Of a stretch of DNA of 57,207 nucleotides, positions 3,073 to 39,626 are shown piece after piece. The DNA is taken from contig NZ_JAHYSG010000082.1 in assembly GCF_022095675.1 (NCBI RefSeq), positions 1-57,207 on the forward strand. The letters are read 5' to 3'. The position numbers were made by a program, and so were the translations under genes. How positions within the stretch are numbered: position 1 is the stretch's first letter; every line of letters begins with the position of its first letter. The stretch comes from Dactylosporangium sp. AC04546 (GTDB taxonomy: Bacteria; Actinomycetota; Actinomycetes; Mycobacteriales; Micromonosporaceae). The notes under the pieces are model-generated. The model was given only the letters and a program-made list of their open reading frames with translations. It was not told the origin of the DNA and ran no database searches.

Positions 3073-3087
3073 TTTGATATTTGATAT
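3073..3087. promoter_or_regulatory. TTTGATA direct-repeat operator, copy 1
   Basis: The sequence TTTGATATTTGATAT is a head-to-tail pair of TTTGATA and contains the palindrome ATAT-N3-ATAT. It is a low-GC island in very high-GC DNA, inside the divergent promoter of the racemase operon and the GntR gene. A TATAGT hexamer at 3085-3090 could be the -10 box for the GntR gene, so a bound protein would block it. Near-identical copies lie at 5242-5261 and 39607-39626. The adjacent GntR protein is the obvious candidate binder, by inference. Confidence 0.75.
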
Positions 3088-3114
3088 AGTAGGCCGCTTT
3101 CGGGAGGAGACACC

Positions 3115-3777
3115 ATGGCCGTCGAGCGGCCGCAGCTGTCCGACGAGGTGGTCGCACACCTGCGGGACCGGATCATGTCGGGCGACCTGCGCCCGGGTGA
3201 GCGGATCCGGCTGGAGGACGTCGCCGACCAGCTCGGGGTGAGCATCACCCCGGTGCGGGAGGCGCTGCTGACCCTGCGCGGCTTCGACATGGTCGAGCTC
3301 CAGCCGCGCCGGGGGTACGTGGTGGCTCCGTTGTCCCGGCAGGACATCGTCGACGTCTTCCAGCTCCAGGCGCACATCGCCGGGGAGCTGGCCGCGCGCG
3401 TCGCCCAGCGGGTGACGGCGGCCGAGCTGACCGAGCTGACCGGGGCGCACCGGGCGATCCAGCGGGCCGCGCAGGCCCGGCGGGTCGACGTCGCCGAGCT
3501 GGAGCAGCTGGAGTTCGAGTTCCACCGGGCCGGCAACCGGGTGGCCGGCGCGCGGAAGCTGTCGTGGCTGCTGCACTGGGCCACGCGGTACACGCCGGCG
3601 CGGTTCCTCGCCTCGGACCCGAGCTGGCGCGAGGGCATGCTCACCGACCACGAGGCGGTGCTGGCGGCGCTCGCGTCGCACGACGCGGGCGCCGCCCAGG
3701 CGGCGATGGCGCGGCACTTCACGGACGGCGCGGACCGCCTCGTGAAGCACCTCGACGACCTCGGTATCTGGGCCTGA
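3115..3777 (+). CDS. GntR family regulator (FadR/FCD subfamily)
   Basis: The 220-residue protein begins with a winged helix-turn-helix (about residues 8-72) that includes GVSITPVREALLTLRG and the wing PRRGYVVAPLS. A helical ligand-binding FCD-type domain follows, with the usual His-containing segments EFHRAGN near 140 and MARHFTDG near 200. FCD regulators generally repress and are released by carboxylic acids or acyl-CoAs. The ATG at 3115 has GGGAGGAG 5 to 12 nt upstream. It is divergent to the racemase operon, with the TTTGATA operator between. It probably represses itself, the racemase operon, the ALDH/ACAD pair and the distant ACAD at 39.6 kb. Confidence 0.9.
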   Translation: MAVERPQLSDEVVAHLRDRIMSGDLRPGERIRLEDVADQLGVSITPVREALLTLRGFDMVELQPRRGYVVAPLSRQDIVDVFQLQAHIAGELAARVAQRVTAAELTELTGAHRAIQRAAQARRVDVAELEQLEFEFHRAGNRVAGARKLSWLLHWATRYTPARFLASDPSWREGMLTDHEAVLAALASHDAGAAQAAMARHFTDGADRLVKHLDDLGIWA

Positions 3778-3785
3778 CCCCGCCG

Positions 3786-5228
3786 TCATCCGCGGGCGTG
3801 CCGCAGGTGGAACAGCTTCGCCGCGCGCTGCAGCGCGGCCGGTGAGCGGTCGAGGCGCAGCAGGTCGATCGGCGCGGTGAAGCGCTGCCGGGTCACCGAC
3901 TTCGGCCGGGAGAACTCGCGCAGGCCGTCGGCGCCGTGGATGCGGCCGAACCCGGAGTCGCCGACCCCGCCGAAGGGCAGCGCCGGGACCGCGGCGAAGC
4001 CGAGCACCGCGTTCACCGAGACCGCGCCGGCCCGCAGCCGGCTCGCGAGCTCGACCGCCGTGCGCCGGCTGCCGGTGAAGACCGACGCGGCCAGCCCGTA
4101 GCGGGAGGCGTTGGCCCGCTCGACCGCCTCGTCGAGGTCGCGGACCGGGTTCACCACGACCGTCGGGCCGAACGTCTCCTCGGTCACGGCCAGGCTGTCC
4201 TCCGGCACCTCGGCCAGCACCACCGGGTCGACGAACGGCGGGCGGACCGAGCCGGGACCGCCGACGACCGCCCGGCCGCCCTTGGCGATGGCGTCGTCGA
4301 TGTGGGCGGCGACGATCGCCGCCTGGGTGGGCGTGGTCATCCGGCCGTACCGCGCGTCGGGCTCCTCGCCGGGCGTGGTCCCGCGGGCGAGCTCGCCGAG
4401 CTTGGCCAGGAACGGCTCGTAGGCCGAGCGCTCGACGTACACCCGCTCGACACCCGCGCAGGTCTGCCCGGCGTTGCCGAACCCGCCGAAGGCGGCGGCC
4501 CGGGCGGCCGCGTCGAGGTCCGCGTCGGCCGCGACGATGAGCGCGTCCTTGCCGCCGGCCTCGACCACGACCGGGGTGAGCGTCTCGGCGCAGGCGGCCA
4601 TCACCTTGCGGCCGGTCGCGGTGGAGCCGGTGAACGCCAGCTTGTCGACGCCGGCCCGGCACAGCGCCGCGCCCACCTCGCCGCCGCCGGTGACCGCCTG
4701 GAACACGGCCGGGCCGTGCTCATGAGGGACGGCCTCGGCCCACGCGGCGGCCAGCCAGCGGCCGACGCCGGGGGTGTGCTCGCTCGGCTTGAACACCACC
4801 GCGTTGCCGGCGGCGAGCGCGTACGAGATCGATCCGAGCGGCGTGTACACCGGGTAGTTCCACGGCCCGATCACGCCGACGACGCCGAGCGGCTCGTAGC
4901 CGACGCTGGCCGCGTGGTTGGCGGCGAGCAGGCCCGAGGGCACCTTCCGGCGGCGCAGCACGCGCCGGGCGTTGCGGGCGGCCCAGTCGAGGTGCTCGAC
5001 GGCGAGCATCACCTCGAGCACGGCGTCGCCGTGCGGCTTGCCGGTCTCGTCGCGGATCTGGTCGGCGAGCTGCTCGATGCGGGCGGCGAGCGTGCGCTTC
5101 CAGGCGAGCAGGGCACGGCGGCGGCCGTCCCAGCCCTGCCCGGCCCACCAGGCGGCGGCCGCGCGCGCCCGCGCCACCGCGTCGGTGACGGTCGTTTCGA
5201 CGGCGACTTGCGCGGTCTGCGTTGCCAT
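3786..5228 (-). CDS. NAD(P)-dependent aldehyde dehydrogenase
   Basis: This 480-residue protein is a full-length aldehyde dehydrogenase. The oxyanion Asn124 sits in GPWNYP, the general base Glu223 in VVEAGGKD, and the nucleophile Cys257 in GNAGQTCAG. The reaction is aldehyde to carboxylic acid with NAD(P)+. The ATG at 5226-5228 follows AGAGGAG. It converges with the GntR gene (8 nt apart) and diverges from an acyl-CoA dehydrogenase across an operator copy (5242-5261), so it belongs to the same regulon. In an isoprenoid pathway it would oxidise aldehyde intermediates inside the cell, complementing the exported OxiAB pair. The exact substrate cannot be read from the sequence. Confidence 0.92.
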   Translation of the reverse strand: MATQTAQVAVETTVTDAVARARAAAAWWAGQGWDGRRRALLAWKRTLAARIEQLADQIRDETGKPHGDAVLEVMLAVEHLDWAARNARRVLRRRKVPSGLLAANHAASVGYEPLGVVGVIGPWNYPVYTPLGSISYALAAGNAVVFKPSEHTPGVGRWLAAAWAEAVPHEHGPAVFQAVTGGGEVGAALCRAGVDKLAFTGSTATGRKVMAACAETLTPVVVEAGGKDALIVAADADLDAAARAAAFGGFGNAGQTCAGVERVYVERSAYEPFLAKLGELARGTTPGEEPDARYGRMTTPTQAAIVAAHIDDAIAKGGRAVVGGPGSVRPPFVDPVVLAEVPEDSLAVTEETFGPTVVVNPVRDLDEAVERANASRYGLAASVFTGSRRTAVELASRLRAGAVSVNAVLGFAAVPALPFGGVGDSGFGRIHGADGLREFSRPKSVTRQRFTAPIDLLRLDRSPAALQRAAKLFHLRHARG

Positions 5229-5241
5229 GGCGGACTCCTCT

Positions 5242-5261
5242 GCGGATTTGATATTTGATAT
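5242..5261. promoter_or_regulatory. TTTGATA direct-repeat operator, copy 2
   Basis: This divergent promoter between the aldehyde dehydrogenase and the acyl-CoA dehydrogenase contains GCGGA followed by TTTGATATTTGATAT. The first 19 bases (5242-5260) are identical, in reverse complement, to 39608-39626 in front of the second acyl-CoA dehydrogenase. The TTTGATATTTGATAT core is also identical to copy 1 at 3073-3087. The site is 14-19 nt upstream of the aldehyde dehydrogenase start and about 40 nt upstream of the acyl-CoA dehydrogenase start, which suits repression of both. Confidence 0.78.
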
Positions 5262-5299
5262 GCTACGTTCGCTGTCAATCCCCAGGCAGGAGTGGCATC

Positions 5300-6439
5300 A
5301 TGCTGGATCTCACCGACGAGCAACGCGCGTTCGTCTCCGCCGTCACCGACTTCTGCCGCCGTGAGGCGGGCACCCGCCAGCAGCGCGACGCGCTGACCGG
5401 CGGCGGCCGTGAGGCGCACAGCCCGGAGCTCTACCGCAAGCTCGCCGACCTCGGCTGGCTCGGCGTGTCCATCCCCGAGGAGTACGGCGGTGCCGGCGGC
5501 GGCATGGTCGACACCTGCCTGTTCCTGGAGACGACCGCCCGCGGCATGGCCCCGATCGGCGGCTTCACGACGTCGATCATCGTCGCCGGGGCCTACGAGC
5601 GGTTCGGCTCGGCCGAGCAGCGCAAGACCGTGCTCGGCGGGGTGGCCGCCGGCCGGATCGAGTCGATCGCCATGTCCGAGCCGGAGGCCGGCTCCGACGT
5701 GGCGAGCCTGGCCTGCCGGGCCGAGCGCCGCGACGACGGCTGGGTCGTCAACGGGCAGAAGACCTGGTGCTCCAACGCCCACCTGGCCGACGGCATCCTG
5801 CTGGTCGCCCGCACCTCCGGCGCGCCCGGCGAGCACGCCGGCATGACGATGTTCCAGGTCCCGGCCGACGCCCCGGGCCTGCGGATCAGCGGCATCGAGA
5901 CGATGGGCGGCCGGGAGGTCAACGACCTCTACTTCACCGACTGCCACCTGCCGGCCGACGCCGTGGTCGGCACCGTCGACCAGGGCTGGAAGCAGCTGAT
6001 GGCCGGGCTCAACGTCGAGCGGCTGATCCTGGCGGCAATCATGCTCGGCACCGCGCAGCGCGCCTTCGACGACGTGCTGGACTACATCAAGCAGCGCCGC
6101 CAGTTCGGCCGCCCGATCGGCAGCTTCCAGGTGCTGCGCCACCGCATGGCCGACCTGGCGACCGAGATCGAGTGCAGCCGCCTGCTGGTGTACCGCACGG
6201 CCGAGCTCGTCGACCGCGACCCGGCCACGGTGCTGCCCCGCGAGACGTCGATGGTGAAGCTCAAGGCCACCGAGACGGCCCGCCGGATGGCGCTCGACGG
6301 CATGCAGATGATGGGCGGCTACGGCTACGCCACGGAGTACGACATGGAGCGCCTGGTCCGCTCGACGGTGGTCTCCACGGTGTACGGCGGGACGAGCGAG
6401 ATCCAGCGCGAGATCATCGGCAAGACCTACGGCCTCTGA
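5300..6439 (+). CDS. Acyl-CoA dehydrogenase (LCAD/IVD-like)
   Basis: This 379-residue flavoprotein catalyses FAD-dependent alpha,beta-desaturation of an acyl-CoA. It shows AMSEPEAGSDVASL (FAD/substrate loop), KTWCSNA, RPIGSFQ and the C-terminal YGGTSEIQ. The Gly in YGGT, where MCAD-type enzymes carry the catalytic Glu, together with a Glu at residue 240 in NVERL, places it with the long-chain/isovaleryl type in which the base sits in that helix. That type accepts branched chains. The ATG at 5300 has GGCAGGAG upstream; an in-frame upstream extension lacks a ribosome site. It lies under operator copy 2 and is probably derepressed with the racemase operon. Confidence 0.92.
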   Translation: MLDLTDEQRAFVSAVTDFCRREAGTRQQRDALTGGGREAHSPELYRKLADLGWLGVSIPEEYGGAGGGMVDTCLFLETTARGMAPIGGFTTSIIVAGAYERFGSAEQRKTVLGGVAAGRIESIAMSEPEAGSDVASLACRAERRDDGWVVNGQKTWCSNAHLADGILLVARTSGAPGEHAGMTMFQVPADAPGLRISGIETMGGREVNDLYFTDCHLPADAVVGTVDQGWKQLMAGLNVERLILAAIMLGTAQRAFDDVLDYIKQRRQFGRPIGSFQVLRHRMADLATEIECSRLLVYRTAELVDRDPATVLPRETSMVKLKATETARRMALDGMQMMGGYGYATEYDMERLVRSTVVSTVYGGTSEIQREIIGKTYGL

Positions 6440-6522
6440 GTTCGGGCCGCACGGCTGAACCACACCTGGCGGCGGGCTGCCTATCGTGCTCGGGTTGCCC
6501 GTCCCGCCTGGAGGTCGCACCC

Positions 6523-7185
6523 GTGTCCCGGCTCGCCCGCGCCCTGCTCGTCACCACGCTCACGGTCGCCGGCGCGGCGGCGTGCGGCCCGTCCGATTCC
6601 CCCGGGGCCGACGCCCCCGCGGCCGCAACCACGAGCAGCGCCCCCGCGCCGCCGGACCGGTTGCCGAGCATCACCGACGCCGACTCCGTCGAACGGGTCA
6701 TGCGTGAGCTCATCGGGCTCGCCGCCCGGCACGCCGTCGGCGCGCCCGAGGACGACCGCCACCCGGACGTCTCGGTCACCTCGGCGTCGGCCTGCGGTGT
6801 GAAGGTCAAGGCCGCCGTCTGCCCGCCGACCGGCGCGGACGCCAAGGTCACCGTCGTGCTCAACCCCGGGCTGACGTGGCAGCAGTACCGCCAGCCGGTC
6901 GGCCACGGCGGCGGCGACGAGGTGGTGCAGAACAGCGTCCTGGGCGCGTACGCGCAGTATCTCGCCTACCGCGACATCCAGCGCACCGACCCGGCCCTGC
7001 TGGACCTCTCGATGAACGACGACGCCGGGACCGCCCGCGTCGCCCAGATCATGATGTGCAAGAACGGCGAGGTCTTCGGCGGCCTGCGCACCGCCATGCC
7101 GCCGGAGCTGGCCAGGACGTGGCAGGCGAACGCGAACGGCAAGCAGGGCGCGTACTTCACCAAGGGCACCACGGGCGGCTGCTGA
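6523..7185 (+). CDS. Putative secreted lipoprotein of unknown function
   Basis: This 220-residue protein begins at a GTG with GGAG about 9 nt upstream. A short positive start (VSRLARALL) and a hydrophobic stretch end at TVAGAAAC. The Cys would be the lipidated residue, though the lipobox is weak. A Ser/Ala/Pro-rich linker follows, then a folded domain of about 170 residues with two CGVKVKAAVC-like cysteines and a C-terminal TTGGC. I do not recognise the domain. It follows the acyl-CoA dehydrogenase by 83 nt and may be transcribed with it. No function is proposed. Confidence 0.75.
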   Translation: MSRLARALLVTTLTVAGAAACGPSDSPGADAPAAATTSSAPAPPDRLPSITDADSVERVMRELIGLAARHAVGAPEDDRHPDVSVTSASACGVKVKAAVCPPTGADAKVTVVLNPGLTWQQYRQPVGHGGGDEVVQNSVLGAYAQYLAYRDIQRTDPALLDLSMNDDAGTARVAQIMMCKNGEVFGGLRTAMPPELARTWQANANGKQGAYFTKGTTGGC

Positions 7186-7191
7186 CGCCCG

Positions 7192-7341
7192 TCACCCCGA
7201 GGGGCGACGCTCGGCGACGACCTGGACGAACACGGTCAGCCCGAACAGCACCCAGAACTCGGCCTCCCGGCGCAGCAGCAGCGCCACGAGGGCGAGCAGG
7301 AAGAGCGCGACCATGGCCACGACGTGCACCGCTTCGGGCAT
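7192..7341 (-). CDS. Small two-helix membrane protein (hypothetical)
   Basis: A 49-residue open frame starts MPEAVHVVAMVALFLLALVA and then has a second hydrophobic run, EFWVLFGLTVFVQVVA, between Arg/Glu-rich ends. It would form two short membrane helices. An AGGAG lies 13 nt upstream of this ATG, which is long, and an in-frame ATG at 7377 would add 12 residues. The gene is convergent with the lipoprotein and divergent from the TetR gene at 7433. It may be a spurious frame, but the clean hydrophobic pattern favours a real peptide. Confidence 0.4.
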   Translation of the reverse strand: MPEAVHVVAMVALFLLALVALLLRREAEFWVLFGLTVFVQVVAERRPSG

Positions 7342-7408
7342 CCATGCGACGGTACTCCTGGCTAAACCGATCGGCAAGATAGGTAATAGCTCCGAATAAA
7401 CATTTCCC

Positions 7409-7420
7409 TAGCGACCGCTA
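7409..7420. promoter_or_regulatory. Palindromic operator before TetR gene
   Basis: TAGCGACCGCTA is a perfect inverted repeat (TAGCG-N2-CGCTA) ending 12 nt before the GTG start of the TetR-type gene and overlapping a TATATC stretch that could be its -10 box. This placement is typical of an autoregulatory TetR operator. The flanking region (7378-7432) is unusually AT-rich. Confidence 0.55.
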
Positions 7421-7432
7421 TATCATCGGCCC

Positions 7433-8032
7433 GTGACTTCGCGACGCGGGCGCCCCCGCCAGTTCGACCGGGACGACGCCCTGCGCACGGCCGTCATGCT
7501 CTTCTGGGAGCGCGGCTACGAGGCCACGTCGATCAACGACCTGTCCGAGGCGATGGGCATCGGCGTGCCGAGCCTGTACGCGGCGTTCGGCAGCAAGCGG
7601 GAGCTGTTCGACGAGGTCGTGGCCGAGTACACGCGGCAGTACCGCGCGTTCATGCAGACGGCGATCGCCGAGGAGCCGACCCTGACCGCGGGCGTGCGCC
7701 GCCTGCTGCACGAGGCCGCCGCGGCCGTCACGAGGCCCGGCCTGCCGCGCGGCTGCCTGGTCATCAGCGCCGCGACGAACACCACCTCGCCGGAGGTGGA
7801 GGAGGGCCTGCGCAAGCTGCGCACGGACGGGGTGGAGGTCCTGGAGTCGCTGATCCGCCGCGCGGTGGCCGCCGGTGAGCTCCCGCCGGGCACCGACGCG
7901 AGCGGCCTGGCCCACTACGTCTGCGCCACGCTGCAGGGCATCGCCCAGCAGGCCCGCGACGGCGCCGACCGCGGGACCCTGGAGACGATCGCCGCGCTGG
8001 CCATGCACGCCTGGCCCGCACCCACGCGCTGA
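7433..8032 (+). CDS. TetR/AcrR family transcriptional regulator
   Basis: The 199-residue protein has an N-terminal TetR helix-turn-helix (about residues 8-55: GRPRQFDRDDALRTAVMLFW, then MGIGVPSLYAAFGSKRELF) and an all-helical C-terminal ligand domain with GLPRGCLVISAATN. That sequence is characteristic of the YxaF/LmrA-like subgroup that often controls oxidoreductase or efflux genes. It starts at GTG 7433. A palindrome at 7409-7420 suggests autoregulation. No obvious adjacent target besides the small membrane ORF is seen; it converges with the LysR gene. Confidence 0.88.
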   Translation: MTSRRGRPRQFDRDDALRTAVMLFWERGYEATSINDLSEAMGIGVPSLYAAFGSKRELFDEVVAEYTRQYRAFMQTAIAEEPTLTAGVRRLLHEAAAAVTRPGLPRGCLVISAATNTTSPEVEEGLRKLRTDGVEVLESLIRRAVAAGELPPGTDASGLAHYVCATLQGIAQQARDGADRGTLETIAALAMHAWPAPTR

Positions 8033-8039
8033 CCCGGCG

Positions 8040-24180: not shown

Positions 24181-24192
24181 GCCGCGGGGCGG

Positions 24193-26022: not shown

Positions 26023-26039
26023 CGTGGTGCCTCCCTTAC

Positions 26040-26070: not shown

Positions 26071-26122
26071 AGCGTCGTGACGTCGCCGGAGCGAGGCACG
26101 GGCACACCGCCGCCGCTCCTGT

Positions 26123-26160: not shown

Positions 26161-26171
26161 GCGGGCGGGTC

Positions 26172-27407
26172 TCAGGCCGCCAGGGCGACGAGCGCGAGGC
26201 GGGTGACGAACGCGGGGGCGCCGCCGGAGCGGGTGAAGCGCACCGCCCGGCCCAGGTCGGTGACCAGGTTGATGGCGGCGTGCACGAGCACCCGGGCCTC
26301 GGCGGGCGGCAGCTCGGGCCGCGTCTGCACGAGCAGCCGCACCCACTCCTCGACGTGCAGCCGCTGCACCTTGCGCAGCTCGTGCCGGTCGGGCTCGGGC
26401 AGGTTGCTGTTCTCGGCGAGGTACACCGAGACCAGGTCGCTCTCGCCGAACGCGAACCCGGTGTAGGCCTCGGCGAGGCGGCGCAGGGCGTCGTCCGGCT
26501 CGGCGGTGCCCCGCAGCGCCGCCGCGGCCGACGCGGCGAGCCGGTCCGACGCCCGGTAGTACGCGGCGGCGAGCAGGTCGGCCTTGCTCGGGAAGTAGCG
26601 GTACACGCTGGAGGCGTTGATCCCGGCGGCGCCGCCGATGTCCTCCATGCCGACCGCGTGGTACCCGAGCCGGTGGAACAGCCGGATCGCCGCGGCGAGC
26701 AGCAGCTCCCGGCGCGGCTCGAGCCCGCCGGGCGCGGGCTCGGCGGCGCGCTCGGCCGCGGCGCCGCGCGCGGAGCGGACCAGCGCCGCCGTCGGGGCGT
26801 CCGCGCGCAGCATCGCCCAGCCGAGGCGGTGCAGCGTCGCCTCGGTCCGGGCCTTCGGCGCGGCGGCCCGGTGGGTGGTCAGGCTGCCGAAGGTGCTCAG
26901 CGCGGCGCGCACCAGGAACTCGGCGCCGGCCGGGGACAGCTCCGGGCGCAGCCGCCGCAGCGGCTCGGCGAACCGGCGGACCAGGGTGGCGAGGGCCGCA
27001 CGGAACTCGGCGCGGTGCTCGTCGGCCAGGTAGCGCCACTCCCACTGGTACAGCGCGCCGACCTTGCGCCGCTCGACGGTGAACCGGGCCATCGACGTGA
27101 GCAGGCCCTCGAGCTCGGCCTGCGGGTCTGCGGCCAGCACGTGCTCGGGCTCCGGCTCGGTCGCGGCGAGCGCCGCCTCGACCAGCTCGCGGGTGGCGTG
27201 GACGAGGATCGCGTACTTGTTGGGGAAGTGCCGGTACACCGCCGGGCCGCTGATCCCGACCGCCGCGGCGATCTCGTCGATGCCGACCAGGTGGTAGCCG
27301 CGGGCGCAGAACAGCTCCGCCGCCACCAGCGCGATCTGCGCCTTGCGGTTCTTCGGCCGCTTGCGGGGCGGGTCGGTCGCGGCGACGTCGGCGGCGTTGG
27401 CGTGCAC
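26172..27407 (-). CDS. Tandem TetR regulator (two complete TetR modules in one chain)
   Basis: The 411-residue protein contains two TetR-type units. The first HTH is at about residues 22-70 (ELFCARGYHLVGIDEIAAAV, SGPAVYRHFPNKYAIL) and the second at about 231-282 (LFHRLGYHAVGMEDIGGAAG, ASSVYRYFPSKADLL). Each is followed by its own helical ligand domain. A normal TetR protein is about 200 residues and binds as a dimer; this one would be an intramolecular pair or a dimer with four HTHs. The start is GTG 27405-27407 with a poor ribosome site. It lies between the ligase and the thiolase operon, both of which have GTTAAC sites in their promoters. Confidence 0.88.
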   Translation of the reverse strand: MHANAADVAATDPPRKRPKNRKAQIALVAAELFCARGYHLVGIDEIAAAVGISGPAVYRHFPNKYAILVHATRELVEAALAATEPEPEHVLAADPQAELEGLLTSMARFTVERRKVGALYQWEWRYLADEHRAEFRAALATLVRRFAEPLRRLRPELSPAGAEFLVRAALSTFGSLTTHRAAAPKARTEATLHRLGWAMLRADAPTAALVRSARGAAAERAAEPAPGGLEPRRELLLAAAIRLFHRLGYHAVGMEDIGGAAGINASSVYRYFPSKADLLAAAYYRASDRLAASAAAALRGTAEPDDALRRLAEAYTGFAFGESDLVSVYLAENSNLPEPDRHELRKVQRLHVEEWVRLLVQTRPELPPAEARVLVHAAINLVTDLGRAVRFTRSGGAPAFVTRLALVALAA

Positions 27408-27501
27408 AAACGCAGAGCCTACTGCCCCGGGCCGCCGCGGTTGCCGGATGTATCACAGCCGATTCGCCGCGACGGCCTTGACGTGCACGGAAAACGTCGG
27501 A

Positions 27502-27518
27502 GAAAGTTAACGCAGATT
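27502..27518. promoter_or_regulatory. GTTAAC operator before the thiolase operon
   Basis: The segment contains AAAGTTAAC followed by GCAGATT, about 50 nt upstream of the thiolase start and downstream of a TTGACG at 27478-27483 that could be a -35 box. AAGTTAAC is shared with the conserved promoters at 26123-26160 and 39483-39520. The overlapping AACGCAGATT (27509-27518) is identical to the reverse complement of 43509-43518 in the first lcp promoter. Confidence 0.55.
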
Positions 27519-27564
27519 CGCACGCCGGCGCGCTGGAGCGGCGGCGTCGGCCGGAGAGGTTGCG

Positions 27565-28776
27565 ATGACACAAGAGGCTTACGTATTCGACGCGGTGCGG
27601 ACACCGCGCGGGCGCGGGAAGCAGAACGGTTCCCTGCACGGGGTGAAGCCCGTGTCGCTGGTCGTGGGGCTGCTCGACGAGCTCCGCGCCCGCCACCCCG
27701 GCCTGGACCCGGCCGCGATCGACGACATCGTGCTGGGTGTCGTCTCGCCCGTCGGCGACCAGGGCGCGGACATCGCCCGGACCGCCGCGATCGCGGCCGG
27801 GCTGCCGGAGACCGTCGCCGGCGTGCAGCTGAACCGCTTCTGCGCCTCGGGCCTGGAGGCGGTGAACATGGCCGCGCAGAAGGTCCGGGCCGGCTGGGAG
27901 GACCTGGTCGTGGCCGGCGGGGTCGAGTCGATGTCGCGGGTGCCGATGGGCTCCGACGGCGGCGCCTGGGCGCTCGACCCGGAGACGAACTACACCACGC
28001 AGTTCATCCCGCAGGGCGTGGGCGCGGACCTGATCGCGACCATGGAGGGCTTCAGCCGCGAGGACGTCGACGCGTACGCCCTCGAGTCGCAGACCCGCGC
28101 CGCCAAGGCCTGGGCGGGCGGCTACTTCGCCCGGTCGGTGGTCCCCGTCCGCGACCGCAACGGCCTGCTGGTCCTGGACCGCGACGAGCACGTCCGCTCC
28201 TCGACGATGGAGGGCCTCGGGTCGCTCCCGGCGTCGTTCGGGGTGATCGGCGACCTCGCCGGGTTCGACGCGGTGGCGCTGCAGAAGTACCACTGGATCG
28301 AGCGCATCGACCACGTGCACACGGCCGGCAACTCGTCCGGCATCGTCGACGGCGCGTCGCTGGTGCTGGTCGGCTCGGAGCGGGCCGGGCAGGAGGCCGG
28401 GCTCACGCCGCGGGCGCGGATCGTGGCCGCGGCGGTGTCCGGCGCCGACCCGACGATCATGTTGACGGGTCCCGCGCCGGCCAGCCGCAAGGCCCTCGCG
28501 AAGGCGGGGCTGACCGTGGACGACATCGATCTGGTGGAGATGAACGAGGCGTTCGCGGCGGTGGTGCTGCGCTACGCCAAGGACATGGGCTTCAGCCTCG
28601 ACAAGGTCAACGTCAACGGTGGCGCGATCGCGATGGGTCACCCGCTCGGCGCGACCGGCGGCATGCTGCTCGGCACCATCGTCGACGAGCTGGAGCGCCG
28701 CCAGCTCCGGTACGGCCTTGTCACCCTGTGCATCGGCGGTGGCATGGGCATCGCCACGATTGTGGAGCGGATCTGA
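27565..28776 (+). CDS. fadA: Acetyl-CoA acyltransferase (thiolase, FadA-like)
   Basis: The 403-residue thiolase has the acylated Cys93 in [21 protein letters not shown] (His near 359) and the C-terminal [11 protein letters not shown], so all catalytic residues are present. It cleaves 3-ketoacyl-CoA with CoA to release acetyl-CoA or propionyl-CoA. GGAGAGG precedes the ATG at 27565. The FadB-like gene starts 2 nt after its stop, so the pair probably forms a trifunctional-type complex. It diverges from the tandem TetR gene. For isoprenoid chains, alternate rounds would release acetyl- and propionyl-CoA. Confidence 0.93.
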
Positions 28777-28778
28777 TC

Positions 28779-30890
28779 ATGACTGAGGCCATTCGTTATG
28801 ACCGGGGGGCCGACGGCGTCGTCGTGCTGACCCTCGACGACCCGAGCCGCGGCGCGAACACCATGAACCAGGCGTTCCTGTCGAGCCTGGACACCGTCCT
28901 GGACCGCCTTGAGGCGGAGCGGGCCGACGTCACGGGCGTGATCATCACCTCGGCGAAGAAGACCTGGTTCGCCGGCGGCGACCTGGACATGCTCGGCAGC
29001 ATCGGCGCGGACCAGGCCGAGCAGGCCTACGCGGCGGGGATGCGGGTGAAGGCCCAGCTGCGCCGCCTGGAGACCCTCGGCCGGCCGGTCGTCGCCGCGA
29101 TCAACGGCTCGGCGCTCGGTGGCGGCCTGGAGTTGGCCCTCGCGTGCCACCATCGGATCGTCGCCGACGACCGGAAGATCGAGATCGGCTTCCCCGAGGT
29201 CACCCTGGGCCTGCTGCCGGGCGGTGGCGGCGTCGTGCGCACGGTGCGGCTGCTGGGCATCACGGAGGCGCTGCTGCACGTGTTGCTGAAGGGCCAGCGG
29301 CACAAGCCCGCGAAGGCCCTGGAGATCGGGCTGGTGCACGAGGTCGTGCCGGCTGAGGAGCTTGAAGGCAAAGCCCGCGCGTGGATCGCTGCCAACCCGG
29401 ACGCCGTGCAGCCGTGGGACGTCAAGGGCTACAAGATTCCGGGTGGCACGCCGAGCGACCCCAGGTTCGCCGTCAACCTGCCCGCGTTCCCCGCCACGCT
29501 GCGCAAGGAGCTCAAGGGCGCCCCGTACCCGGCGCCGCGCAACATTCTCGCCGCCGCCGTCGAAGGTGCCCAGGTGGACCTGGCGACCGCGTTCGACATC
29601 GAAGGGCGCTACTTCACCGAGCTCGCCACGGGGCAGATCGCGAAGAACATGATCCAGGCGTTCTTCTTCGACCTGCAGGCGGCCAACGCCCGCGGCTCGC
29701 AGGCGGCGCCGTTCCAGAAGGTCGCTGTACTCGGCGCGGGCATGATGGGCGCCGGTATCGCCTACGTGTGCGCGCGGGCGGGCATGCAGGTGCTGCTCAA
29801 GGACGTCACCATCGAGGCCGCGCAGAAAGGCAAGGCCTACTCGGAACGCCTGGTCCAGAAGGGGCGTGGCGGGCCGGACCTCCTCGACCGGATCACGCCG
29901 ACCGCGGACCCGGCGGATCTCGCCGGCGCCGACCTGGTCATCGAGGCCGTCTTCGAGGACCCGGGGTTGAAGCACAAGGTGTTCGCCGAGATCGAGCATC
30001 TGGTATCTCCCGGCGCGCTGCTGTGCTCCAACACGTCCACGCTGCCGATCTCGATGCTCGCCGACGGCGTGCAGCGCCGTGAGGACTTCGTCGGCCTGCA
30101 CTTCTTCTCACCCGTCGACAAGATGCCCCTGGTCGAGATCATCCGCGGGCAGGCGACCACCGACGAGACCGTCGAACGCGCCCTCGGCGTCGTGCGGCAG
30201 CTGCGCAAGACACCGATCGTCGTCAACGACAGCCGCGGGTTCTTCACCAGCCGGGTCATCGGCACGTTCACCAACGAGGGCATCGCCATGCTCGCCGAGG
30301 GGATCGCGCCCGCCTCGATCGAGCAGGCCAGCCTCCAGGCCGGCTACCCCGCCCCCGTCCTGCAGCTCATGGACGAGCTGACCCTCACCCTGCCGCGCAA
30401 GATCCGGCAGGAGACGGCCGCCGCGGTCGTGGCCGCCGGCGGCACGTGGACGCCACACCCCGCCGACGCCGTCATCGACCGCATGATCGACGAGTTCGGG
30501 CGGCCCGGCCGGTCCGGCGGTGCCGGGTTCTACGAGTACGTCGACGGCAAGCGCACCCGGCTCTGGCCCGGCCTGCGCTTCGCCGACGAGAACCACACGG
30601 TGCCGTTCGTCGACATGCAGGAGCGGATGCTCTTCGCCGAGGCCATCGAGTCCGTCAAGTGCCTCGACGAAGGGGTCCTCACCAGCGTCGCCGACGCGAA
30701 TGTCGGGTCGATCCTCGGCATCGGGTTCCCCGGCTGGACCGGCGGCGTCCTGCAGTACATCAACCAGTACGAGGGCGGCCTGAACGGCTTCGTGGCCCGG
30801 GCCCGCGAGCTCGCCGCCCGCTACGGGACCCGCTTCGAACCGCCGCAGCTGCTGCTCGACAAGGCCGCCCGCGGCGAGCAGTTCCGCTGA
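28779..30890 (+). CDS. fadB: Bifunctional enoyl-CoA hydratase / 3-hydroxyacyl-CoA dehydrogenase (FadB-like)
   Basis: The 703-residue protein has an N-terminal crotonase domain (about 1-190, oxyanion segment INGSALGGGLELALACHH). The dehydrogenase part begins with the NAD-binding VLGAGMMGAGIAYV near residue 317. HFFSPVDKMPLVEII near 440 holds the catalytic His, and two C-terminal helical domains follow. It hydrates enoyl-CoA and oxidises the 3-hydroxy product for the thiolase. The ATG at 28779 is 2 nt after the thiolase stop. A strong hairpin follows the stop codon. Confidence 0.93.
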   Translation: MTEAIRYDRGADGVVVLTLDDPSRGANTMNQAFLSSLDTVLDRLEAERADVTGVIITSAKKTWFAGGDLDMLGSIGADQAEQAYAAGMRVKAQLRRLETLGRPVVAAINGSALGGGLELALACHHRIVADDRKIEIGFPEVTLGLLPGGGGVVRTVRLLGITEALLHVLLKGQRHKPAKALEIGLVHEVVPAEELEGKARAWIAANPDAVQPWDVKGYKIPGGTPSDPRFAVNLPAFPATLRKELKGAPYPAPRNILAAAVEGAQVDLATAFDIEGRYFTELATGQIAKNMIQAFFFDLQAANARGSQAAPFQKVAVLGAGMMGAGIAYVCARAGMQVLLKDVTIEAAQKGKAYSERLVQKGRGGPDLLDRITPTADPADLAGADLVIEAVFEDPGLKHKVFAEIEHLVSPGALLCSNTSTLPISMLADGVQRREDFVGLHFFSPVDKMPLVEIIRGQATTDETVERALGVVRQLRKTPIVVNDSRGFFTSRVIGTFTNEGIAMLAEGIAPASIEQASLQAGYPAPVLQLMDELTLTLPRKIRQETAAAVVAAGGTWTPHPADAVIDRMIDEFGRPGRSGGAGFYEYVDGKRTRLWPGLRFADENHTVPFVDMQERMLFAEAIESVKCLDEGVLTSVADANVGSILGIGFPGWTGGVLQYINQYEGGLNGFVARARELAARYGTRFEPPQLLLDKAARGEQFR

Positions 30891-30898
30891 AAAGAGCC

Positions 30899-30940
30899 CC
30901 GCGCCGGGTCCGGAGCCTCGACGGCCCGGGCCCGGCGCGG
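30899..30940. terminator. Bidirectional terminator between FadB and second ligase genes
   Basis: CCGCGCCGGG (30899-30908) pairs perfectly with CCCGGCGCGG (30931-30940); smaller GC pairings are possible in the 22-nt loop. The hairpin sits between two convergent stop codons, preceded by AAAAGAG. Confidence 0.75.
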
Positions 30941-30944
30941 CACG

Positions 30945-32732: not shown

Positions 32733-32751
32733 GGGAACCTCCTCCACGGGT

Positions 32752-34698: not shown

Positions 34699-35416
34699 CG
34701 GGTGGTGCCTCCAGGTTGGTCGGGGTGGTGCCGAAGTACGCCTCGGCGACGGCGTGCCGGTCGGCGCGCAGGCGGGCGGCCGGTCCGGTGAGCGCGACGC
34801 GGCCGTGGTGCAGCACGATCGCCCGGTCGGCGACGGACAGCGCCAGGTCGATGTGCTGCTCGACGAGCACGACACCGACGCCGAAGCGGTCGGCGAGGGA
34901 CCGCACCGCCGGCAGCAGGGCCTGGACCGCGACGGGGGCCAGGCCCATGCTCATCTCGTCGACGAGCAGGACGCGGGGCCGCCCGGCGAGGGCCTTGGCG
35001 ATGGCGAGCATCTGCTGCTCGCCGCCCGACAGCAGCCCGCACCGGCGCGACATCAGCCCGGTCAGCGCCGGGAACAGCTCTTCGTGGATCTGGTCGCGGC
35101 CGCCGCGGCGGGCGAGGGCGAGGTTCTCGCGGACGGTCAGGCCGTGGAACACGCCCCTGGTGTCGGGCACCAGGATCAGCCCGGCACGTGCGTTGCGCTC
35201 CAGCCGGCGATGCAGCGGCCGGCCGAACGCCTCGACCGAGCCGCGCATCGGGCGGATGACCCCCGCCGCGGTGAGCAGCGTGGTCGTCTTGCCCGCGCCG
35301 TTGGGACCGAGCAGGGCGAGCACCTCGCCCTCCCCGACCTCGAGGTCGAGGTCCCGGACGGCCGGGATCCCGGCATAGCCGCTGGTGATGCCGTGCAGGC
35401 GCAGGAGCGCGGTCAT
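34634..35416 (-). CDS. Branched-chain-type ABC transporter ATPase (LivF-like)
   Basis: The 260-residue ATPase has Walker A GPNGAGKTT, signature LLSGGEQQMLAIAKAL, Walker B VLLVDEMSMGLAP and the LivF-type VEQHIDLALSVADRA. It energises the Liv-type importer encoded upstream. Start and upstream stop overlap by 4 nt (ATGA). Its C-terminal tail of about 22 residues after EAYFG is longer than usual, poorly conserved-looking, and runs 65 nt into the GMC oxidase gene. The stop codon may have drifted downstream. Confidence 0.92.
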   Translation of the reverse strand: MTALLRLHGITSGYAGIPAVRDLDLEVGEGEVLALLGPNGAGKTTTLLTAAGVIRPMRGSVEAFGRPLHRRLERNARAGLILVPDTRGVFHGLTVRENLALARRGGRDQIHEELFPALTGLMSRRCGLLSGGEQQMLAIAKALAGRPRVLLVDEMSMGLAPVAVQALLPAVRSLADRFGVGVVLVEQHIDLALSVADRAIVLHHGRVALTGPAARLRADRHAVAEAYFGTTPTNLEAPPDGTDRQAARRPGEHLRHLHTG

Positions 35417-36159
35417 GGCGCCAGCTCCGATCCCAGGTAGGCCCGGCGGACGGCCGGGTCGGCGAGCACCGCCTGTGGCGTCCCCTCGGCGATGACGACC
35501 CCGTAGTCCAGGACGTAGGCCCGGTCGCAGACGTCCGCCACGAGGGTCATGTCGTGGTCGATCAGCAGTACCGCCAGGCCCGTCGCGGCGACCGCGCGCA
35601 CGTGCCGGCCGAACTCGGCGCTCTCGTCGGTGTCCAGCCCGGCGGCCGGCTCGTCGAGCAGCACGACCCGGGTGCCGCCGACCAGCGCCCGGGCCACGCC
35701 GGCGATCTTCTGCCGGCCCAGGCTCAGCTCGCCGGGCCGCCGGTCGGCGACGAAGTGCAGGCCGAACAGCTCCAGGACCTCGTCGACGTCGCGGCCGGGC
35801 CGGCGGCGGCCGGTGAGGTCGGCCCACAGGTTGCGCAACGGCCCGGGGCCGGTGGCGACGCCGACGTTCTGGCGGACCGTCAGGTCGGCGAACAGCTCGC
35901 CGGCCTGCCAGGTGCGGGCCAGGCCGGCGCGGCGGCGCTCGTGCGGGGCGAGCCGGTCGATGCGCCGCCCGGCCAGGCTGACGGTGCCGCCGGCCGGGGT
36001 GAAGCCGGTGACCGCGTCGACGAGGCTGGTCTTGCCGGCGCCGTTCGGGCCGATCAGCCCGACGACCTCGCCCTCGCCGACGGTGAGGCTGACGTCGTCG
36101 TTGGCCAGGACGCCGCCGTACCGCACGGTCAGCCCCTCGGTTGAAAGCAGCGTGCTCAT
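35413..36159 (-). CDS. Branched-chain-type ABC transporter ATPase (LivG-like)
   Basis: The 248-residue ATPase has GPNGAGKTSLVDAVTGF, ELSLGRQKIAGVARAL (a slightly unusual signature, LSLGR instead of LSGGQ), VVLLDEPAAGLD and LIDHDMTLVADVCDR, the last typical of LivG. It overlaps both neighbours by 4 nt. It pairs with the LivF-like protein to drive one importer. The signature variant is seen in other Liv-type ATPases and does not by itself argue for inactivity. Confidence 0.92.
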   Translation of the reverse strand: MSTLLSTEGLTVRYGGVLANDDVSLTVGEGEVVGLIGPNGAGKTSLVDAVTGFTPAGGTVSLAGRRIDRLAPHERRRAGLARTWQAGELFADLTVRQNVGVATGPGPLRNLWADLTGRRRPGRDVDEVLELFGLHFVADRRPGELSLGRQKIAGVARALVGGTRVVLLDEPAAGLDTDESAEFGRHVRAVAATGLAVLLIDHDMTLVADVCDRAYVLDYGVVIAEGTPQAVLADPAVRRAYLGSELAP

Positions 36160-38072
36160 GCGGTCGCCTTTCTCCGCACCAGGTGCGCGATCCCGGACGG
36201 GTTGAGCACCGCCGTCACCACGAGCGCGCAGGCCGCGATGAGCGTGTAGTAGCGGCCGAGGCCGAACGTCGTGCCGAGCAGCGTGTAGAGCACGCCGAGC
36301 GGGGCGATCAGCCCGGCGATGACGGCGCCGCCGATGCGGGTGATGCCGCCCACGTAGGCCATGCACAGCACGCTGAGCCCGACGACGACGTTGAACGACT
36401 CGACCGACAGCTGGGAGCGGCTGTACCCGATGAGGCACCCGCCGACGCCGGCGAGGAACGCCGACAGCGCGAAGCCGGCCAGCTTGGTGCGGGCCACGTC
36501 GATGCCGGCGCTGGCCGCGGCCCGCTCGTTGGAGCGGATCGCCAGGAACGACTGGCCGGTCGCCCCGCCCAGCAGCCGGGCGACGACGGCGACGAGCAGC
36601 CCGACGATGACGATCACCGTGGCGGAGAACGCCGCGGTGGTCAGGTCGGTGCCGCGGCGCACCTCGAGGTCCCAGCCGAACAGCGTCGGGCCGTCGATGA
36701 GGTTGCCCTCGAACGGGGTCAGCGCCGGGTTGGCGAACACGAGCTGCTGCAGGGCGACGGCCCCGGCCAGGGTCACCACCGCGAGCTGCGCGCCCCGGAT
36801 CCGCAGCGCCGGCAGGCCCACGGCGACGCCGACGAGTGTGGCCACGCCGGCGGACAGCAGGATCGACAGCGGGAACGGCACGCCCCAGGCGACCGTGGCC
36901 CGGGACAGCACGAACCCGCCGGTGCCGGCGAAGGCCATCGAGGCGAGCGAGATCTGCCCGAGGTAGCCGGTGAGCACCACCAGCGACAGGGCGATGAGCC
37001 CCATGATGACCGACGTGACGACGCCGAAGCGCCAGCTGCCGGAGGTGAACGCGACGGCGACGGCGGCCGCCGCCGCGAGCCCGGCGGCCGCCGTCCACGG
37101 GCGGCGGGGCAGGGTCACGGCCGGCATCCGGACCGTGCCCAGCGCGCCGCGCGCCGGGATGTGCCGGCCCAGCACGACCAGGGCGACGACGACGAGGACG
37201 AACGGCAGCGCCTCGCCGAAGCCGGCCTGGGCCCAGGTGGGCCAGCCGTCGTTGGTGCTCAGCAGCATCAGGATCGACTGGAGGCAGCCGATCGCCAGCC
37301 CGGCCGCGCAGGCGGTGACGACCGAGGTCAGCCGGGCCAGCAGCGCGGCGGCGAGGCCGGGCAGGACGTAGAACATGTAGCCGATCGGGTCGAGGCCGAG
37401 CGTCGGGGCGGCGAGCACCGCCACGACCGACGTCGCCGCGCCGGTGATCACCCACATGACGCCGGCGAGCCGGTCGGGCGACAGCCCGGTCAGCCGGGCG
37501 GCGCGTTCGTCCTCCGCGCTCGCCCGGGTGGCGACGCCCCATCGGGTGAACCGGAAGTACGCCGAGAGGGCCGCCGCCACCGTGACCGCGACGCCGAGCA
37601 GGACCAGGTCGCTGACGTTGAGGAACGTGCCGCCCACCGCCAGGGTGCGGTCGGTGAGCAGCGGCTCCGCGAGGGCGCCGCTGGTCGGGAACCGCAGCGG
37701 CACCAGCGCGGCGATCGCCAGCATGAGCCCGACCGACGCCACCACCTGCGACAGCGGTGGCGCCGAGCGCAGCGGCCGGAACACCAGCCAGTGGGCGGCC
37801 AGCGCGAGCGCGGCGGTGTACAGCACGCCGATCGCGACGGCCGCCCAGGCCGTCATGGGCGCCGTGCCGAGCGGCACCGAGCCGGCGGGCAGCACGAGGG
37901 TGCCGCTGCGCCGCAGCTCGGCGACGACCCACACGCCCCACAGGGCGAACGAGCCCTGCGCGAAGTTGAGGACTCCGGTGGCGGCGTGCAGGGACACGAT
38001 CGACGCGGCGATCACGGCGTAGACCGAGCCGGCCGCGAAGCCCAGGGTGACGAAGAGCAGGACCTGGTCCAT
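36156..38072 (-). CDS. Fused LivH-LivM type ABC permease
   Basis: At 638 residues this single protein covers both Liv-type permeases. The N-terminal half (about 1-300) has the LivH start GFAAGSVYAVIAASIVSLHA and GLSPDRLAGVMWVITGAATS. The C-terminal half (about 320-630) has LivM features LVVLTGYLGQISLASMAFAG, AIRSNERAAASAGIDVARTK and GGITRIGGAVIAGLIAPLG. Each is about 300 residues with 8-10 helices in the usual systems, and here they are joined by a short loop. The fusion fixes a heterodimeric channel. The start is 8 nt after the binding-protein stop. Confidence 0.92.
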   Translation of the reverse strand: MDQVLLFVTLGFAAGSVYAVIAASIVSLHAATGVLNFAQGSFALWGVWVVAELRRSGTLVLPAGSVPLGTAPMTAWAAVAIGVLYTAALALAAHWLVFRPLRSAPPLSQVVASVGLMLAIAALVPLRFPTSGALAEPLLTDRTLAVGGTFLNVSDLVLLGVAVTVAAALSAYFRFTRWGVATRASAEDERAARLTGLSPDRLAGVMWVITGAATSVVAVLAAPTLGLDPIGYMFYVLPGLAAALLARLTSVVTACAAGLAIGCLQSILMLLSTNDGWPTWAQAGFGEALPFVLVVVALVVLGRHIPARGALGTVRMPAVTLPRRPWTAAAGLAAAAAVAVAFTSGSWRFGVVTSVIMGLIALSLVVLTGYLGQISLASMAFAGTGGFVLSRATVAWGVPFPLSILLSAGVATLVGVAVGLPALRIRGAQLAVVTLAGAVALQQLVFANPALTPFEGNLIDGPTLFGWDLEVRRGTDLTTAAFSATVIVIVGLLVAVVARLLGGATGQSFLAIRSNERAAASAGIDVARTKLAGFALSAFLAGVGGCLIGYSRSQLSVESFNVVVGLSVLCMAYVGGITRIGGAVIAGLIAPLGVLYTLLGTTFGLGRYYTLIAACALVVTAVLNPSGIAHLVRRKATA

Positions 38073-38080
38073 GGTTCGGG

Positions 38081-39304
38081 TTACACCGCTCCGGGGATGG
38101 CGGCGAGCACCTGCGGTACCGGCGCGATCCAGCTGCCGGTGACGGGCTTGGCCGTGCCGTCGGGCTGCACCACGAACAGCAGCATCTGGGTCGTGCAGTT
38201 CGGCGACGTGGCACTGCCGCAGGTGAGCTTCGGGCCGAGGAAGCTCGGGAAGTCCTTCAGCGCCTTGAGCGTCTTGAGCACACCCGCCCCGGTGAGGTCA
38301 CTGTCGGGCGCCGTGGCCAGGGCCTTGGCGAACGTGACGAACAGCGAGAACTCGCCGTAGGCGTAGTAGCCGGGGGTGCCGCCGGAGACGCCGGAGATGT
38401 ACTTCTCGGCCAGCGTCAGCTCGGCCTGCACGTCGGCCGGCGCGTACTTCGCCGCGGCGGGCAGCCAGTTCGACGAGTAGAGCGCACCGCCGGCGGCCTG
38501 CGCGGGGGAGCTCTTGATGTAGTCGGTGCAGGCGGCGGTGAAGATCTCGCCCTTGTACTGCAGCTGCCGCAGCGCCTTGACGAGGGCCGAGCAGACCGCC
38601 TCGCTCGGCGAGGCCACCAGGCCGCCGACGTCGGGGTTGGCCTGGGCGATGGTCGAGGCCAGGGCGGTGAAGTTCGGGTTGGTGGCCGAGAAGTAGATGC
38701 CCTTGGCGTCGATGCCGAGCGTCCTGGCGAGCACGGGCAGCAGGTTGTCGATGGTCTGGTGCGACGACGGGGTGTCGACCAGGGCCAGGGTCACCGACTT
38801 CTTGCCCTCGGACTTGAAGGCCTGCAGCGCGCCGATGAGGAACGACGCCTGCGGCGCGGCGAAGAAGACCCGGTTCTCGGCCTTGGCGCCGGTCACCGAG
38901 TCGAACGGGATCATGCCGACGAGCGGGATCTGGGCGGCGGTGAGGGCGGGCAGGGCCGCGCTCGACGAGAGGTTGTAGCCGTCCATGACGGCCACCACCT
39001 TCTTCTCGACGAACGTGTTGGCGCACGACTGGGCCCGCTCCGGCGTCGTGTCGGTGTCGCACGACACGACCTCGAGCGGGTGGCCGTTGATGCCGCCGAG
39101 CTCGCCGTTGATGTAGGCGACGGCCGCCTTGACGCCGGTGTCGGTGCCGGGCTGCGGGACCGGCCCGCCGGACGGGTTGAGGAAGCCGACGACGATCGGC
39201 GGCTTGGAGAAGGTGGCTGACGCTGACGGTGCAGGCGTTTCCGAGGCGCAGCCGGCGGCCGTCGCCAGGAGCGCGACAAGGAGGACCGCGGGAGACCGGC
39301 GCAT
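38081..39304 (-). CDS. Branched-chain-type ABC transporter substrate-binding lipoprotein
   Basis: The 407-residue protein has a signal peptide with lipobox ATAAGC (Cys19) and an Ala/Ser/Pro linker. A type I binding fold of the LivK group follows (PIVVGFLNPSGGPVPQPGTD, AVAYINGELGGINGHPLEVV). The ligand pocket should be tuned to something other than amino acids, given the neighbouring ligases and alcohol oxidase. A hydrophobic carboxylic acid is plausible. GAGGAA precedes the ATG. Its promoter (39483-39520) is nearly the same as that of the acyl-CoA ligase at 24193, which supports a role in acid uptake. Confidence 0.92.
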   Translation of the reverse strand: MRRSPAVLLVALLATAAGCASETPAPSASATFSKPPIVVGFLNPSGGPVPQPGTDTGVKAAVAYINGELGGINGHPLEVVSCDTDTTPERAQSCANTFVEKKVVAVMDGYNLSSSAALPALTAAQIPLVGMIPFDSVTGAKAENRVFFAAPQASFLIGALQAFKSEGKKSVTLALVDTPSSHQTIDNLLPVLARTLGIDAKGIYFSATNPNFTALASTIAQANPDVGGLVASPSEAVCSALVKALRQLQYKGEIFTAACTDYIKSSPAQAAGGALYSSNWLPAAAKYAPADVQAELTLAEKYISGVSGGTPGYYAYGEFSLFVTFAKALATAPDSDLTGAGVLKTLKALKDFPSFLGPKLTCGSATSPNCTTQMLLFVVQPDGTAKPVTGSWIAPVPQVLAAIPGAV

Positions 39305-39392
39305 GGGTTCCTCATTTCGAAGACGTGGTCGCCGCCCGCAGGGGTGGGGGCGGTCGACGGACAGCTCGCGTGCAGAAGGCGCGGGATGGCGC

Positions 39393-39429
39393 GTACCGCC
39401 GGGCCGGTGTGCGGCCGGCTCGGCGGTAC
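39393..39429 (-). promoter_or_regulatory. Large hairpin in the leader of the ABC importer operon
   Basis: GTACCGCCGGGCCGG (39393-39407) can pair with CCGGCTCGGCGGTAC (39415-39429) except at one position, giving a 15-bp stem with a 7-nt loop. It lies about 50 nt into the predicted transcript and about 90 nt before the start codon. It may attenuate transcription or just stabilise the leader. Confidence 0.45.
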
Positions 39430-39482
39430 CGGACGTGCCAGGCTGATCGGCCCGCGCTCGCGCGGACCCTCGTCGTTCTGCA

Positions 39483-39520
39483 CGGCACTGTAAAGCAGCG
39501 TTAACTTCTTGGGAAGACCG
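39483..39520 (-). promoter_or_regulatory. Conserved promoter/operator before the ABC importer operon
   Basis: On the minus strand TTCCCA and TACAGT are 17 nt apart with GTTAAC inside the spacer, exactly as at 26123-26160. The two 38-nt blocks differ at only 5 positions, 3 of them in the short segment between GTTAAC and the -10. The importer transcript would start near 39480 with a leader of about 175 nt. Confidence 0.75.
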
Positions 39521-39606
39521 CCCGTTGGTACCAGCCCGTCCGCTGCTCAGCCATGAGAATCCTGACTAACAAAATGGGACTTGCCCCGGAGTGGTCGCAG
39601 GAGTCA

Positions 39607-39626
39607 GTATCAAATATCAAATCCGC
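39607..39626. promoter_or_regulatory. TTTGATA direct-repeat operator, copy 3
   Basis: The reverse complement of 39608-39626 is GCGGATTTGATATTTGATA, identical over 19 nt to 5242-5260. The site ends 17 nt before the start of the acyl-CoA dehydrogenase, close enough to block transcription. It is 34 kb from the GntR gene whose own promoter carries the same core. Confidence 0.78.

Follow-up and report, generated by a model that had tools for sequence, protein, structure and literature searches.

A tandem heptamer at three promoters as the probable operator of a GntR-family regulator in the rubber-degradation cluster of Dactylosporangium sp. AC04546

The stretch of DNA considered here, 57,207 nucleotides (nt) at positions 1 to 57,207 of contig NZ_JAHYSG010000082.1 of Dactylosporangium sp. 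AC04546 and called the window below, carries one 14-base word, TTTGATATTTGATA, in three promoter regions spread over 34 kb. This raises the question of which protein reads the word and why genes so far apart should share it. The strain is described as a rubber degrader with a genome of 13.08 Mb (PMC11169899), and the gene order of the window agrees with that printed for it (PMC8538451). The best explanation, which we regard as highly likely, is that TTTGATATTTGATA is the operator of the adjacent GntR protein and that this protein would act as an occlusion repressor of a three-promoter regulon for isoprenoid acids.

Three sites on one contig

The core is found exact at 3073-3086 (+), 5247-5260 (+) and 39608-39621 (-). 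These positions had been noticed in an earlier sequence-only reading, with ranges one base too long for a core of 14 bases; the same reading had sites 2 and 3 sharing 19 identical bases, which is correct and corresponds exactly to GCGGATTTGATATTTGATA. With up to three mismatches, no match to TTTGATATTTGATA was found in the window beyond the three exact sites (0.02 expected from 100 shuffles), and TTTGATA and the looser TTTGAYA each occur six times there, always inside the three tandem pairs. A scan of the genome (13,024,294 bases, 348 contigs) at up to one mismatch gave three places, all on the window's contig, and zero matches in the whole genome to the reversed control pattern, which settles genome-wide the earlier reading's concern that the word might be common elsewhere. 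At up to three mismatches, TTTGAYATTTGATA gave 29 matches genome-wide, namely three exact, one with two mismatches (on another contig, C17) and 25 with three; as its reversed control gave 21 at the same threshold, the three-mismatch matches look like background. The strong sites in the genome are three, all on this contig. In the literature, the string TTTGATATTTGA turned up in one unrelated paper only, as judged from its excerpt. The sites and the genes around them are as follows.

3073..3086, plus strand: operator 1, TTTGATA-TTTGATA, between the divergent gntR and CoA-transferase-III operon; runs into TATAGT (3085-3090), the proposed extended -10 of gntR
5247..5260, plus strand: operator 2, TTTGATA-TTTGATA, in the gap between the divergently transcribed genes for aldehyde dehydrogenase and acyl-CoA dehydrogenase 1; continues into TATGCT (5259-5264), the proposed -10 of the latter
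39608..39621, minus strand: operator 3, upstream of acyl-CoA dehydrogenase 2; the orthologous site of D. sucinum has three heptamers
3115..3777, plus strand: gntR, 220-aa regulator of the GntR family carrying an FCD domain, predicted operator binder (PF00392, PF07729)
1871..3034, minus strand: CoA-transferase family III (alpha-methylacyl-CoA racemase-like), opening the divergent operon (PF02515)
844..1869, minus strand: LLM-class F420-dependent oxidoreductase (TIGR03559 above cut-off)
2..847, minus strand: MPAB/Lcp-catalytic-domain protein, third operon gene, at the contig end (PF09995)
3786..5228, minus strand: aldehyde dehydrogenase (ALDH), divergent from acyl-CoA dehydrogenase 1 at operator 2 (family search)
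5300..6439, plus strand: acyl-CoA dehydrogenase 1 (ACD1; family search)
39644..40777, plus strand: acyl-CoA dehydrogenase 2 (ACD2), GTG start (family search)
43562-44770 and 44862-46061, plus strand: two Lcp-type rubber oxygenases, genomic partner of the regulon; no operator match with up to three mismatches in front
46058..48829, plus strand: oxiB/oxiA-like genes after lcp, no operator (46058-48352 by family search; 48353-48829 named by gene order in PMC8538451)

Operator 1 lies 28 nt from the predicted start of gntR (ATG 3115) and 38 nt from that of the CoA-transferase/racemase-like gene (ATG 3034), operator 2 lies 18 nt from ALDH (ATG 5228) and 39 nt from ACD1 (ATG 5300), and operator 3 lies 22 nt from ACD2 (GTG 39644). 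No operator match with up to three mismatches was found at the thiolase/fadB genes (27565-30890), the CoA ligases, the Liv-type transporter, lcp or the oxi genes, and because the window has no weaker sites, these genes were kept out of the regulon.

The rest of the cluster holds genes for a thiolase, a FadB-like protein, CoA ligases, a GMC oxidase and a Liv-type transporter, together with TetR genes and two Lcp plus oxi-type genes. The name racemase, given to the first operon gene in the earlier reading, stands at the family level, as PF02515 passes, although no NCBIfam model reached its cut-off. The MPAB/Lcp-catalytic-domain protein (2-847) has its best match among solved structures in the trans-anethole oxygenase 8s1j (E 6e-7), and is a possible intracellular C=C-cleaving oxygenase for oligo-isoprenoids. 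At 26172-27407, divergent from thiolase/fadB, a TetR-type protein with two TetR_N stretches is encoded, and a similarly duplicated TetR regulator of lcp was described in a paper on Actinoplanes OR16. Two TetR paralogs of 72% identity (40763-41434 and 42823-43437) stand before lcp, likewise in D. sucinum.

The regulator and its probable pathway across genomes

The protein encoded beside operator 1 scores above the cut-offs for both of its domains (PF00392, 60.3 bits against 27; PF07729, 51.9 bits against 24.3), which assigns it to the GntR family, FadR (FCD) subfamily. In the genus sample of seven genomes, the word was present in all four with a GntR ortholog (84-100% identity) and in none of the three without. 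The family sample comprised 150 genomes, of which 24 gave a GntR match at E<=1e-40; the 22 with at least 65% identity were taken as orthologs, and two matches of 45 and 48% identity were set apart. At up to one mismatch, the word occurs in 28 of the 150 genomes at 48 places (reversed control: one place), and it is carried by 21 of the 22 ortholog genomes versus 7 of the 128 others (Fisher p about 1e-18), an overlap that was reached by none of 200,000 within-genus permutations. For the exact word the figures are 16/22 versus 3/128, with the overlap reached in 31 of 200,000 permutations.

Ortholog genomes account for 40 of the 48 places, and 38 of these 40 are promoters of gntR, ACD1/ALDH, ACD2 or MPAB genes, one of them before an ACD1 remnant (G001). 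One other place (G071) follows gntR at a distance of 39 bp, and no ACD1 turned up in the 4.3 kb beyond it. The remaining one, G042:6969341 (L154, a 3.9-kb locus, around 1942), reads TTTGACATTTGATA and is away from the regulon, the only homolog of window genes around it being a weak, LivF-like one. Before gntR itself, 25 ortholog loci were compared (the 22 family orthologs plus L086, L129 and L130, with the Frankia-like L087, L088 and L131-L134 excluded), and the best site shows no mismatch in 11, one in seven, two in three and three in four of them. Three ACD1/ALDH sites that were first placed by spacing were confirmed from fetched sequence; G060 carries the gntR site only. The assignment of the word to the GntR/FCD protein, already made in the sequence-only reading, is thus supported by the co-occurrence, by a site before gntR at all 25 loci together with the ACD1/ALDH promoter sites, and by a related word before some more distant homologs. 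The word TTTGATATTTGATA is very probably the binding site of the adjacent GntR protein.

This related word, TTTGAYATTTGATCAAA, was searched at up to one mismatch in 397 genomes of the order and found in 10, all of genus g51 (reversed control: none); nine of the ten matches have the aligned start of a GntR homolog at a distance of 114-155 bp, and one lies elsewhere. Gene order was checked at a single locus, L175, where the regulator and an AMP-binding gene point away from each other and genes with MlaE and Mce domains come after the latter; we take this order for the mce1R arrangement, and by it genus g51 is probably Mycobacterium-like. As a separate observation, exact TTTGATATTTGATA lies about 0.2-0.5 kb behind other GntR-type genes (32-33% identity, tblastn) at L062 and L073 in G148 and G059; the word may be common to related regulators, or the matches may be due to chance.

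The genomes also point to a pathway. Lcp (query 43562, E<=1e-40) is present in 18 of the 150 family genomes, and all 18 have the GntR ortholog, so that the count is 18/22 versus 0/128 (p about 1e-19; reached by 0 of 200,000 within-genus permutations). Of the 14 genomes sampled from genus g30, six have the GntR ortholog, and Lcp is present in exactly these six. The hint at polyisoprene in the earlier reading therefore finds strong support within the family. In Frankia/Parafrankia loci, gntR lies within 10 kb of lcp (L087) or of lcp and oxi genes (L088), and among the 397 order genomes Lcp is present in 8 of the 11 with a GntR ortholog of at least 60% identity; across the whole order, outside the family, the link to rubber is weak. 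The alpha-methylacyl-CoA racemase Mcr belongs to CoA-transferase family III. Its loss abolished polyisoprene use in another actinobacterium (PMC8538451, citing Arenskotter 2008). Within the family the substrate is best read as rubber-derived oligo-isoprenoids, and a wider use for branched acyl compounds is possible.

Gene order in relatives may explain why the regulon is split over 34 kb. ACD2 lies within the racemase-like operon in D. aurantiacum (L083, order CoA-transferase-LLM-ACD2-MPAB), in G060 (L181, order CoA-transferase-ACD2-MPAB), in L086 and, as far as partial matches show, in L082 and L161. In the window and in D. sucinum, ACD2 is near lcp and has its own operator, and in G104 an MPAB gene stands alone with its own site (one mismatch). 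It would appear that genes moved and that their control stayed.

Promoter geometry and the weighing of alternatives

For the form of the site, 44 sequences were collected, 25 at gntR and 19 of the ACD1 type. The latter were collected because they match and therefore describe the word without testing it; 17 precede ACD1, one a remnant (G001) and one no ACD1 (G071), and G042, G043 and G084 are not represented. In all 44, the second heptamer runs into TAnnnT, mostly as TGATAnnnT, an extended -10. An in-frame start follows 6-7 nt after TAnnnT in 17 of the 25 gntR promoters, the geometry of leaderless mRNA, which supports the proposed -10; in the other eight, the first in-frame start follows after 20-24 nt. 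The site thus overlaps the promoters of the regulator and of its targets, as expected of an autoregulating local repressor, and since the operator sits on the promoter core, repression by occlusion is predicted. At 5264-5276, downstream of the ACD1 operator, a second conserved block, TACG...TGTC, was seen, with the TGTC bases present in 18-19 of the 19 collected sites.

The computations show the sites and their rarity, the co-occurrence, the geometry of the promoters, the conserved targets and, within the family, the link to Lcp; from here on we infer binding, repression, inducer and substrate as follows. The FCD-subfamily GntR protein would recognise the tandem heptamer TTTGAYA in two, sometimes three copies with a 7-bp period. 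The TGATA of the extended -10 (TGATAnnnT) would come from the second heptamer at gntR and ACD1, so that the bound protein would block RNA polymerase; the positions of the sites could let it cover the two divergent promoters in both directions plus the single ACD2 promoter. The regulon would comprise three promoters, those of gntR with the CoA-transferase/racemase-like-LLM-MPAB operon, of ALDH with ACD1, and of ACD2, and would serve the oxidation and beta-oxidation of methyl-branched, isoprenoid-like acids from rubber cleavage by Lcp. A catabolic intermediate, perhaps an isoprenoid carboxylate or CoA ester bound at the FCD histidine cluster, would release the repressor. Such clusters have a role in binding metal and carboxylate ligands, and the conservation of His137, His179 and His201 in 31 of 31 homologs of at least 60% identity is in line with a metal-bound carboxylate ligand.

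A number of observations weigh against this account. Seven genomes without the ortholog carry the word at up to one mismatch, the ortholog genome G048 has sites with two and three mismatches only, and no site was found in the fetched loci of the GntR homologs of 45-48% identity (G007, G059). Before gntR, the left heptamer has eroded in its first three bases in genus g7, and in four Frankia-like loci (L131-L134) it is chiefly the right unit that survives. L087 and L088, beside lcp, have no site with up to three mismatches in 20 kb. No TAnnnT is present on the motif strand at the ACD2 site. Four of the 22 ortholog genomes are without Lcp (E<=1e-40), 40 of the 48 Lcp genomes of the order sample are without a GntR ortholog of at least 60% identity, and TTTGAYATTTGATCAAA at up to one mismatch was found in only 9 of 40 g51 genomes with a homolog.

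Alternative explanations of the word itself concern its form, its function and its binder. The consensus from the 44 sites is TTTGAYA-TTTGATA, which lacks the palindromic GT-N-AC form, and the D. sucinum ACD2 site, TTTGATA-TTTGACA-TTTGATA, has three units in register, with looser third units in other genomes. The operator could also be written as an imperfect palindrome of the classical GntR form, GATAT-TTG-ATATC, and the Frankia-like locus L133, which reads GATATTTGATATC, as well as the related word of genus g51, which contains the palindrome TTTGATCAAA, would suit this. It is nevertheless unlikely and disfavoured on conservation, because at gntR the two outermost bases of the right arm show little conservation (0.25 and 0.16 bits), the left GAT can become GAC with no corresponding change, and the three-unit array fits a direct repeat. 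That the word is a promoter element only, an extended -10 for a sigma factor and no operator, would agree with TGATAnnnT or near-identical spacing at all 44 gntR and ACD1 sites, but we give this very little credence: a general element would not be confined to three places in 13 Mb, the word tracks the presence of GntR, the left heptamer is outside the -10, and D. sucinum has its extra unit in register. Moreover, ACD2 and the lone G104 MPAB gene have retained the word although it faces the opposite way to the gene, so that a -10 alone does not explain its conservation. Equally improbable is an operator of another regulator of the cluster, such as the TetR protein encoded next to ACD2 (40763-41434) or the two-domain one at 26172. 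Both genes are in the same cluster, the two-domain gene is present in many of the same loci, and the published lcp regulators are of the TetR type (PMC7413915); however, the word precedes gntR at 25 of 25 loci and no TetR gene in the window, and the TetR sites published at lcp are unrelated palindromes (PMC7413915). Of the two, the TetR protein at 40763 was compared across genomes as a possible binder and rejected: in 12 of the 22 ortholog genomes nothing matched it at E<=1e-25, and all 12 carry the word at up to one mismatch; in a few of them not every first-look candidate was scored.

The pathway is more difficult to decide. Regulon and operator may be right and serve a general catabolism of branched or terpenoid acyl-CoA, with rubber as one use among several, a possibility that we take seriously, although we incline against it. 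The four ortholog genomes without Lcp still carry the word, among them D. siamense (G004), which keeps gntR, ALDH and ACD1 with both operators; lcp and the oxi genes carry no operator; and most Lcp genomes outside the family are without a close ortholog. Against this, the ortholog is present in 18 of 18 family Lcp genomes, also within genera, and in three of the four Lcp-less genomes (G001, G060, G071) no intact ACD1 and no ALDH were found beside gntR, the rest of those genomes not having been searched. In one of them, D. aurantiacum (G001), the operator is kept directly before an 81-residue C-terminal ACD1 remnant (L180, 3652-3900), a picture of regulon decay. Taking the operator reading further, we tentatively propose, at not far short of an even chance, that in Micromonosporaceae and some Frankia-like bacteria this GntR protein would act as a switch reserved for the half of rubber (oligo-isoprenoid) catabolism that takes place inside the cell. 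It would sense an isoprenoid acid or CoA ester and bind a variable-copy heptamer array without the N-terminal arm of NanR; its core target would be an intracellular MPAB/Lcp-type oxygenase re-cutting imported oligo-isoprenoids, and the TTTGA-based code would reach Mce1R-type lipid-uptake regulators.

Comparison with known systems

A literature search that covered few subscription journals found no description of a GntR regulator of rubber catabolism and no regulator of the downstream steps; the single hit that named GntR did so in a reference title alone. The defined operator and three-promoter regulon offer a way into the least understood part of the rubber pathway, name candidate enzymes, including an MPAB-type oxygenase, and could be used to sense the products of rubber breakdown. 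The known regulators LcpR (VH2) and LcpRB (A3(2)) also act on rubber degradation in actinobacteria, as is proposed for the GntR protein, but differ from it in having a TetR fold and palindromic sites and in acting on lcp (PMC7413915), whereas lcp of the window is without the present operator.

Systems of the FadR subfamily with palindromic operators share the protein subfamily and a site in divergent promoters, but their consensus NyGTNxACNy (PMC4494728) is absent from the operators of the window. Exceptions to the palindrome rule of GntR proteins are NanR of the FadR subfamily and FarR and NagQ of the HutC subfamily (PMC4494728). Three dimers of NanR of E. coli bind (GGTATA)3, helped by a 32-residue N-terminal extension (PMC8012715). 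The direct-repeat form proposed in the sequence-only reading is supported by the D. sucinum array and is not unprecedented in the subfamily. Both NanR and the GntR protein of the window combine a GntR protein with a tandem direct-repeat operator over catabolic promoters, NanR needing at least two units. They differ in the unit, GGTATA versus TTTGAYA with a 7-bp period, and in the long N-terminal extension, which the window protein lacks, as its GntR domain begins at residue 8 and an upstream stop lies within about 10 codons. The NCBIfam NanR model scores 42.6 on it, below the cut-off of 260. Direct-repeat operators are already known in the GntR family, and what is new here is a useful biological assignment, real and well supported.

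The Mce1R-type regulators, assigned by gene order, are related to the GntR protein of the window (47-51% identity for the nine with a site), and the TTTGAYATTTGATCAAA upstream of them shares TTTGAYATTTGAT with its operator. In all six that were aligned, the third FCD histidine is replaced. Mce1R is divergent from a fadD5-like gene and the mce operon, whereas the window protein has CoA-transferase III, LLM, MPAB, ALDH and ACD genes as neighbours. The Mce1R site was called undeciphered in 2010 (PMC2867952), and two later papers give no site where they deal with Mce1R. The core shared with the Mce1R-type regulators suggests a site for this regulator.

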